Program-made: the position numbers and the translations under genes | DNA from: a virus | Reading direction: 5' to 3' (one strand) | Length of the DNA stretch: 22,930 nt | Virus record (IMG/VR): IMGVR_UViG_3300022929_000228 | Span: 1 to 22,930 of that record | Notes under the pieces: model-generated | What the model saw: only the letters and a program-made list of their open reading frames with translations | What the model was told of the DNA's origin: nothing | The model's database searches: none | Shown here: piece after piece, positions 11,787-14,317 of the stretch | How positions within the stretch are numbered: position 1 is the first letter of the stretch | Layout: every line of letters starts with the position of its first letter

Positions 11787-12100
11787 ACAACATGATTCAG
11801 CAAAGGGTTGCCGCAGTTCTACTCAAGCACCCAGAAACCAAAGACGATGACCGAATGCTTACTGCCTATTATTGGACAATGCAGATGTCAGATGAAGGCA
11901 TAAGATTAGAAACCTTTGATGATTTTAAGCGTGAGTACACATTCGGCAAGTTGACCGATGCTCAGACCATCACAAGAATCAGACGTAAGCTTCAGATGGA
12001 ACGCCCACAATTCAGAGGCAAGAAGTACCTGGAGAAGATGGCAAAGCAACAAAAAGTAAAAAGTGATTTGGGTTATACTCATAATTCATTAAATTCGTAG
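11783..12100 (+). CDS. Conserved phage protein of unknown function
   Basis: A 105-residue basic, helical protein. The opening VAAVLLKHPETKDDDRMLTA and the later segment DAQTITRIRRKLQMERPQFR resemble a small family I recall beside replication genes in many phages (pattern: short helix, DDDR, then TITRxRRKxQ). The arginine-rich helix suggests nucleic-acid binding. It lies just upstream of the structured leader and the DUF6291 gene. Confidence 0.65.
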   Translation: MNNMIQQRVAAVLLKHPETKDDDRMLTAYYWTMQMSDEGIRLETFDDFKREYTFGKLTDAQTITRIRRKLQMERPQFRGKKYLEKMAKQQKVKSDLGYTHNSLNS

Positions 12101-12101
12101 A

Positions 12102-12195
12102 GCAAACAACAGGGTGGGAGCTGTTATGTTTAATGACTTTTGCCTCGGCTGGTTAGATGGTCTTCCACACATCTAATCGGTACGGGGCTTTTTTT
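12102..12195 (+). ncRNA. Structured leader ending in a terminator-like hairpin at a start codon
   Basis: GCAAA (12102-12106) can pair with TTTGC (12139-12143), enclosing a small hairpin AACAG/CTGTT (12108-12112 with 12121-12125). Downstream, GCCTC (12142-12146) pairs with GGGGC (12184-12188), and CTGGTTAGATG (12149-12159) pairs with CATCTAATCGG (12170-12180) with wobbles. Seven T (12189-12195) follow and touch the ATG at 12196. The first and last helices share bases 12142-12143, so they compete. This looks like an attenuator for the DUF6291 gene. A plain terminator plus downstream promoter is the alternative. Confidence 0.65.
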
Positions 12196-12861
12196 ATGGC
12201 ACAAAATAAGAAATCATTCATATTGTACACCGACCTAATTCATACGGTGGAGCAGTTAAACGAGGAACAAGCAGGGAGATTGTTTAAGCATATTCTCGCT
12301 TACGTTAATGACCTTGATCCTGAAACAGACGATGTTATCACAAAGATTGCATTTGAACCGATTAGACAACAGTTAAAGCGTGACCTTCAGAAATGGGATA
12401 GTTACATTGAAAAGCAGAGCCTAAATGGGAAAAAGGGTGGCAGACCAAAGAAACCCAAAGAAAGCGAAAAAACCCAAGCCTTTTCTGAAAAACCCAAAAA
12501 AGCTGATAGTGTTAATGTAAGTGTAAGTGATAGTGTAAATGTTAATGTAATAAATAAGAGAGATAAATCTCTCTTGGTGGAAAGGGATGAAATTTTTGAT
12601 CAGGTTTGGAAGGCTTACAGCCAAGTTTCAACACGACAACCTGGAAGCAAAAAGGATGCAGCATCAAAGTTTAAAAAACTAAAACAGACGGAGCTTGAAA
12701 AGATCAGGCAGCATTTACCCAAATATCTCAAGAATCACATCGCAGCACAAAAGACAGATTATCTTCCTAACTTTACAACCTACTTAAACCAAAGGAGATA
12801 CGAGGATGAAAAACTCCCGTATGCGGATAGTCAAAACGAATTAGACAACTGGACATTATGA
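12196..12861 (+). CDS. DUF6291 phage replisome-type protein
   Basis: A 221-residue protein started at 12196 (MAQNKKSFILYTDLIHTVEQ); a longer frame from 12157 would begin inside the leader hairpin. Residues 1-80 match the DUF6291 domain (EEQAGRLFKHILAYVNDLDP, then WDSYIEKQSLNGKKGGRPKK). A low-complexity linker (SVNVSVSDSVNVNV, residues about 105-118) joins it to a C-terminal helical domain (VWKAYSQVSTRQ..SKKDAASKFKKL). Proteins of this layout occur where phage replication initiators are found. The linker DNA holds hexamer repeats, as in lambda O. Likely role: origin recognition or helicase loading. Confidence 0.75.
   Translation: MAQNKKSFILYTDLIHTVEQLNEEQAGRLFKHILAYVNDLDPETDDVITKIAFEPIRQQLKRDLQKWDSYIEKQSLNGKKGGRPKKPKESEKTQAFSEKPKKADSVNVSVSDSVNVNVINKRDKSLLVERDEIFDQVWKAYSQVSTRQPGSKKDAASKFKKLKQTELEKIRQHLPKYLKNHIAAQKTDYLPNFTTYLNQRRYEDEKLPYADSQNELDNWTL
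12505..12575 (+). repeat. Iteron-like hexamers and inverted repeat: candidate replication origin
   Basis: Seven tandem hexamers of consensus RTGTAA fill 12509-12550 (GTGTTA, ATGTAA, GTGTAA, GTGATA, GTGTAA, ATGTTA, ATGTAA). GTTAATGTAA occurs twice (12511-12520, 12541-12550) and GATAGT twice (12505, 12529). Five bases later a perfect 9-bp inverted repeat AAGAGAGAT-AA-ATCTCTCTT spans 12556-12575. Repeats inside a replication gene linker recall lambda ori. Confidence 0.5.
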
Positions 12862-13714: not shown

Positions 13715-14317
13715 ATGTTTATTCAGGATGTTAATCAGGAGATGATATTGGAGCGTTTAAAAAAGCTCTGTTCATTAGGAGGCATTAAGCCACCACAACA
13801 AGGAAAGGAGTTCATCGAGTTTATTCAAGAAGGATTTGCACGATGTGAAATCGAAACGATGGACAAAGCCTTCAGAGAGTATCTGCTCGGAAAGTACACG
13901 ATCAGACAACCACAGCAACTCAACGTCAAATTTGTAAGCGACATCATGAACGCCTACATAAAAGACAACTCTCACACTTTAAAACTAAAGCCACGGGAGT
14001 ATTTGGCAATAGAAGCACCGGTTGACAATAGCCCTAAGATGTCATCCTTTGAGATAGCCAAAAGCAACTGGGAGAATGTCAGAACAAAAAGGGCGGCAGT
14101 GTTTCCATCTTTTCTATGCAAGGCTTGGGAGGAATTAGAAGACAAGCCAAAGATTGATGAGAAGCGAGTGGCTGAGTTAGTGGAGATGATTAAGGACAAT
14201 CAAAATATATGGTTTTACAAACTGAAACGAGAGCGAGGTCATAAACAGAAACGCTCACAATTAGACGAGGAAATTATTTACAAAGCAGCCTGTATGGCAT
14301 ACTATTTAGAACTATGA
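13715..14317 (+). CDS. Phage protein of unknown function in the replication module
   Basis: A 200-residue mostly helical basic protein. Its first half (LERLKKLCSLGGIKPPQQGK, then YLLGKYTIRQPQQLNVKFVS) resembles loader or replication accessory proteins found between initiator and DnaA-like genes; the second half carries helices such as WEELEDKPKIDEKRVAELVE. No Walker motif or zinc site is seen. It starts two bases after the methyltransferase stop and overlaps the next gene by 4 nt. A DNA replication role is inferred from context only. Confidence 0.6.
   Translation: MFIQDVNQEMILERLKKLCSLGGIKPPQQGKEFIEFIQEGFARCEIETMDKAFREYLLGKYTIRQPQQLNVKFVSDIMNAYIKDNSHTLKLKPREYLAIEAPVDNSPKMSSFEIAKSNWENVRTKRAAVFPSFLCKAWEELEDKPKIDEKRVAELVEMIKDNQNIWFYKLKRERGHKQKRSQLDEEIIYKAACMAYYLEL

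Follow-up and report, generated by a model that had tools for sequence, protein, structure and literature searches.

A promoter, a 5′ hairpin and an intrinsic terminator whose apical loop kisses the loop of that hairpin make up a leader placed before phage replication genes, and this anatomy, its covariation and its placement are established computationally. From the comparison of sequences, we assign a probability of roughly 0.55 to the reading that this leader is a cis-acting transcription attenuator of new design, in which read-through would be set by the kissing contact. That the leader acts in cis on expression of the downstream gene is quite probable.

The leader and its gene

The window, the whole stretch of 22,930 nucleotides that was analysed, is a 22.9-kb virus record of a Bacteroidetes phage and comprises structural as well as early genes. 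The early region encodes ERF, a YqaJ-type nuclease, DUF6291, a C5 methylase and a protein with the DnaA C-terminal domain. The leader fills the gap between a small gene (end at 12100) and the DUF6291 gene (start at 12196), and its elements are as follows.

12067–12070, + strand: TTTG, a −33-like promoter element (from the sequence)
12090–12097, + strand: TAAATTCG, a Bacteroidetes −7 box of the TAnnTTTG type (from a box scan at DUF6291 loci)
12108–12125, + strand: hairpin H1, stem 12108–12112/12121–12125, loop 12113–12120 (folding; compensatory changes in relatives)
12114–12120, + strand: kissing segment A (GUGGGAG) in the H1 loop, complementary to 12162–12168 and covarying in relatives
12126–12141, + strand: 16-nt linker between H1 and H2, constant in length in the window family except in L021
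12142–12188, + strand: H2, intrinsic-terminator stem of 18 bp including wobbles, arms 12142–12159/12170–12188, bulged A12182 (folding; alignments of relatives)
12162–12168, + strand: kissing segment A′ (CUUCCAC) in the terminator apical loop, covarying in relatives
12189–12195, + strand: U7 tract, predicted 3′ end of a terminated RNA of about 95 nt (from the sequence)
12196–12861, + strand: DUF6291 replication gene, 221 aa (PF19808, 5e-26; PHROG matches to replication initiation and primosomal proteins)

A first-pass annotation of this DNA had described a terminator stem at 12142–12188, a T-tract at 12189–12195 ending at the ATG at 12196, and a small hairpin upstream. Folding reproduces the stem with 18 pairs, wobbles included, and the bulged A12182, as well as the small hairpin (12108–12112/12121–12125), and the T-tract ends exactly where it was placed. 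A GC-rich stem is immediately followed by U7, as in an intrinsic terminator. The minimum free energy (MFE) of the leader is −36.6 kcal/mol against −22.9 ± 3.1 for shuffled sequences (z = −4.36), and none of 200 shuffles was as stable. In nearly all of 63 units, the first ATG lies 6–19 nt past H2. Two features escaped the earlier reading, namely the loop-loop complementarity of 12114–12120 with 12162–12168 and the promoter, TTTG-19-TAAATTCG, from which transcription would start at about 12101. In 26 of 64 units, the −7 box is preceded by a TTG that begins 21–23 nt further 5′, the spacing expected of a Bacteroidetes promoter.

Covariation of the kissing loops

In the window, A and A′ form seven pairs, one of them G-U. 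Taken singly, these loops give P = 0.08 against shuffled loops, and it is the comparative evidence that carries the case. Relatives were gathered by protein and by leader pattern, and their loops are paired as GUGGAAG/CUUCCAC, GUAGGAG/CUCCUAC, GUCGCAG/CUGCGAC, GUGGUAG/CUACCAC, GUCGAG/CUCGAC, GGUCAG/CUGACC and GUAGUG/CACUAC. Among 18 homologous leaders with 10 distinct loop pairs, the total of own-partner loop pairing is 66, a value matched by one in 100,000 permutations.

Covariation in the leaders of relatives, a check that the first-pass annotation had proposed, was found in the kissing contact; the pseudoknot was written as a named structure and counted on MAFFT alignments that had not been fitted to it. 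The kissing helix is unbroken in all sequences scored, from three alignable subfamilies with 48 distinct leaders. In type B (11 leaders) it is 100% paired and five of seven pairs have changed on both sides; in type C (14 leaders) it is likewise 100% paired, with two-sided change in five of six pairs. The window family divides into subtype II (12 leaders), where 100% of lettered cells are paired and 3/7 pairs are two-sided, two gapped columns in eight six-pair rows being left aside, and subtype I (11 leaders, mean column identity 93%), where the helix is 100% paired and 2/7 pairs are two-sided. Elsewhere in the subtype I RNA there is no two-sided compensation. The whole-structure covariation score was reached by none of 500 shuffles in any of the four alignments, a control that leaves relatedness in and that is offset in part by the independent subfamilies and by sliding the partners, upon which pairing falls to 26–49%.

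Divergence per site in subtype I is 0.19 in the kissing segments, 0.19 in the unpaired linker and 0–0.07 in the stems. On these figures, the sequence of the kissing segments appears free to vary while their complementarity is constrained. The alignments hold two hairpin loops with covarying complementarity, and a structured RNA with a loop-loop contact almost certainly exists.

Distribution among phages and downstream genes

A scanner demanding a TAnnTT[TC]G box, a 5′ hairpin and a terminator was run at 125 further DUF6291 loci. On the gene strand it found 41 distinct kissing units at 81 box-plus-terminator sites, about seven of the units belonging to the window's own family, and on the other strand 4 at 63, while seven decoy boxes in the same scan gave 0–25%. 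This enrichment is if anything understated, because 81 counts all sites and 41 distinct units only. Loci missed by the scanner and read by eye add further units, among them that of Pedobacter L304. Many DUF6291 genes abut the upstream gene and have no leader. An exact-pattern scan with GGGGCTTTTTTTATG yielded mainly contigs outside the window family, and an unanchored kissing scan, in which no promoter was required, gave 208 hits against 145 expected by chance, so that such hits were left out of the counts.

The same architecture, without alignable sequence, occurs in Cellulophaga phage phi13:2, Flavobacterium phages filifjonk9-1 and elemoA and Olleya phage Harreka_1, either directly upstream of the DUF6291 gene or one or two small genes before it. 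The units lie at about 13,861–13,970 of NC_048831 in filifjonk9-1, at about 3,191–3,090 of KC821633 (− strand) in phi13:2 and at about 30,070–30,175 of MT732457 in Harreka_1. Four cultured genomes were scanned, two of them complete and two to 50 kb, and each has one clear unit, at the replication module. The architecture is also present in Flavobacterium, Pedobacter (L304) and Vicingaceae genomes. About 30–32 different loop codes are found among 63–64 curated units, and two units of one genome never have the same code: L195 has GTGTGGTAG and GTAGTG, L027 has CTGGTAC and ACCTCTCA, and the tooticki candidate also carries units with differing codes in one genome.

The leader serves DUF6291 in the window but is not tied to it, and homologous or like-built leaders also precede genes for DUF1376-like proteins, Lin1244_N, DnaD-like helicase loaders, an uncharacterised initiator, ERF (in L027) and NUMOD4-HNH. 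Because the downstream genes vary in this way, the leader RNA is best regarded as a module for early genes, chiefly replication initiators, and not as the partner of one protein. Loops that keep matching through many two-sided changes, in many leader backbones and before at least six kinds of downstream genes, imply a real function.

NUMOD4-HNH homing endonuclease genes stand behind kissing-terminator leaders at L195:5369–5851 (− strand) and, as a weaker candidate, in tooticki at L206:196–672 (+ strand). The leader may travel with mobile genes.

A terminator proposed to be tuned by kissing

In the proposed mechanism, host RNA polymerase would start at about 12101 at the leader's own promoter and make H1 and then the terminator H2. 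The H1 loop would kiss the H2 loop through 6–9 base pairs while both stems remain formed. Termination at U7 would release a compact RNA of about 95 nt in the majority of cases, and the remaining transcripts would read through into the replication gene a few bases on. The kissing contact would set how often H2 completes its zipping at the base, and thereby the level of read-through. The short fixed linker, which has to run back over the full length of the stack, probably acts as the mechanical element; that it strains H2 is a geometric guess. We infer from the architecture that termination and read-through take place in vivo, and likewise the effect of kissing and its sign and any ligand or trans partner. 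Alternatively, kissing may serve structure or stability alone.

The contact is compatible with the terminator, because the loops essentially consist of the kissing segments and both stems stay in place. Therefore, no alternative state is visible in the sequence, which tells against the proposed mechanism. A contact of this sort differs from what the first-pass annotation had assumed, namely an attenuator or riboregulator of the classical type, in which a terminator and an antiterminator helix exclude each other. Its structured terminator leader before a replication gene is supported by the strong covariation and the constant position, but its mutually exclusive helices are not supported. The proposed helix of 12102–12106 with 12139–12143 (GCAAA/UUUGC) is able to pair in the window, and segment A of subtype I can also pair with the U-rich linker and the base of H2. 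However, the GCAAA/UUUGC helix is absent from the MFE structure and broken in about half of the relatives; it pairs in about 13 of 24 (aligned position read by eye, G-U allowed) and is never compensated, because its 3′ side is nearly invariant. Folds of the truncated leader offered a second alternative helix, 12112–12120 with 12137–12145, which shows no compensation and scores identically to shuffles. Across 63 units, pairing of the upstream leader with the base of the 5′ arm of H2, at the stage when the 3′ arm has yet to be made, is weaker than that of shuffled leaders (0.165 vs 0.265), which disfavours a classical antiterminator, and no conserved antiterminator helix exclusive with the terminator was found among the relatives and these units. 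A classical attenuator is thus very unlikely, and its weakness together with the compatibility of contact and terminator favours tuning of terminator closure.

Other forms of control in the leader were considered as well. A ribosome-mediated leader-peptide attenuator is rejected, since no leader ORF is conserved: the window has a 16-codon frame starting with the ATG at 12126, which is reduced to ATG-TAA in L001 and absent from types B and C. The GGGG that had been taken as a Shine-Dalgarno sequence buried in the terminator stem is not conserved, and subtype C leaders lack it at that place. At the Rfam gathering score, no leader match was obtained in the window or in 20 relatives (c4, RF01695, and riboswitches included).

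In four relatives (L021, L180, L183 and L199) the structure is kept while the leader's own promoter is missing directly before it, and another promoter-terminator unit immediately precedes. Since these leaders are promoterless and still structured, a cis role in longer transcripts is favoured, and in these four the leader is presumably used within a longer transcript.

Possible trans recognition and other explanations

The terminated RNA carries both loops. Conceivably, it could bind nascent leaders that share its code and so modulate their termination, which would give copy-dependent feedback or superinfection exclusion. Such trans self-recognition would have analogues in plasmid copy-control RNAs, in P4 CI RNA and P1 c4 RNA, and in the short isoform of IsrK, which acts on the read-through form of the same RNA. 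The two-sided compensations of subtype I are confined to the kissing helix, whose segments diverge like the unpaired linker and not like the stems; codes differ within one genome (L195, L027 and the tooticki candidate); and predicted pairing between non-matching codes is far weaker. That matched codes diversify fast, are not shared within a genome and are predicted to cross-pair weakly suggests, as a conjecture, recognition of same-code nascent leaders, for which IsrK offers a precedent (PMC4825925). On the other hand, intramolecular kissing should beat pairing in trans, no second site in trans was found, and the cis contact alone also accounts for the covariation. We therefore treat trans recognition as tentative, and it is similarly doubtful that these leaders form a widespread class of Bacteroidetes phage RNAs with a private, fast-diversifying code, each terminated RNA recognising its own leader and setting read-through into the replication gene by copy number.

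Its own promoter and terminator, and its occurrence before different genes, would also suit an independent phage small RNA, such as a stable decoy or a host regulator, standing before replication genes by chance and just compacted and stabilised by kissing. This is improbable in view of the constant abutment on the start codon of early genes, the copies without their own promoter, and the lack of any exposed sequence conserved across subfamilies as a common target. T4 gp32 represses its own synthesis as an autogenous repressor, and a pseudoknot directly 5′ of a gene for a nucleic-acid-handling protein might likewise be an operator through which the replication protein represses its own synthesis, but near-identical leaders before unrelated proteins (DUF6291, DUF1376-like, Lin1244_N, DnaD-like and HNH) make this hardly credible.

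Relation to known regulatory RNAs

The λ PR′-tR′ leader (6S RNA) has a constitutive promoter and a short terminated leader followed by phage genes, and is controlled by Q antitermination. The window leader shares this layout of promoter, short terminated leader and phage genes, whereas control in λ is exerted by a protein bound to DNA and RNA polymerase, with no loop-loop code. ColE1 RNAI/RNAII and the ColIb-P9 rep leader use loop-loop pairing of about 7 nt with specificity codes before replication functions. In these plasmid copy-control systems the antisense transcript comes from the opposite strand, while in the window leader the complement lies in cis on the same strand. If true, a self-recognising leader would be a same-strand, self-addressed counterpart of plasmid incompatibility RNAs.

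P4 CI RNA and the P1/P7 c4 antisense RNA (RF01695) share with the leader a location by phage replication or antirepressor genes, loop-based pairing and termination before the gene (PMC4825925, PMC2864571). In those systems a separate, processed RNA pairs with sites in the leader, whereas here both loops reside in one RNA and one of them is the terminator loop. Gifsy-1 IsrK produces a terminated short RNA and a read-through mRNA from a single promoter (PMC4825925), as is predicted for the leader. IsrK activates translation in trans, and the available part of that source reports no kissing terminator loop with compensating codes for it (PMC4825925). Searches of an open-access library found no description of DUF6291 or of the kissing-terminator architecture, and the leader looks like an undescribed kind of regulatory RNA controlling phage replication genes.

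The timing of replication in Bacteroidetes phages is little known, and the leader is an experimentally simple system. Should kissing tune termination, the control of polymerase by RNA would gain a new mechanism; should the leader also act in trans, phages would possess an RNA-based means of telling self from non-self. The loop codes could be used as ready-made orthogonal parts.

Additional observations

At seven loci (L180, L183, L187, L192, L195, L199 and L021), a second TATATTTG promoter and a short terminated RNA lie immediately 5′ of the kissing leader. Some of these loci have no promoter between the two units, and therefore transcription must cross one terminator to reach the next.

Within 150 nt before the DUF6291 start, L221, L232 and L284 show the order A-A′-A, in which the 5′ segment is repeated just before the start codon, giving A′ two possible partners. 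L232 and L284 have the complementarity and no U-tract, a point against kissing-tuned termination, and because the U-tract is absent they suggest a translational version of the leader. Across 76 units, a third segment-A copy close to the start codon was no more frequent than in shuffles.

In type C leaders (L228, L230, L241 and others), the terminator stem contains a conserved internal loop, GUUAGUAAG/CGAAAGCG, whose flanking helices vary. It may act as a bend by which the 5′ hairpin comes within reach of the terminator loop.

Inside the DUF6291 gene, at 12504–12575 of the window, there are three iteron-like copies of 23 nt each with 12-nt spacing (TGATAGTGTTAATGTAAGTGTAA), followed on the 3′ side by an AT-rich stretch and an inverted repeat. 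The repeat encoded there is of DNVNVN type and is found in relatives as well. The copies, the AT-rich stretch and the inverted repeat together are a candidate replication origin within the initiator gene.
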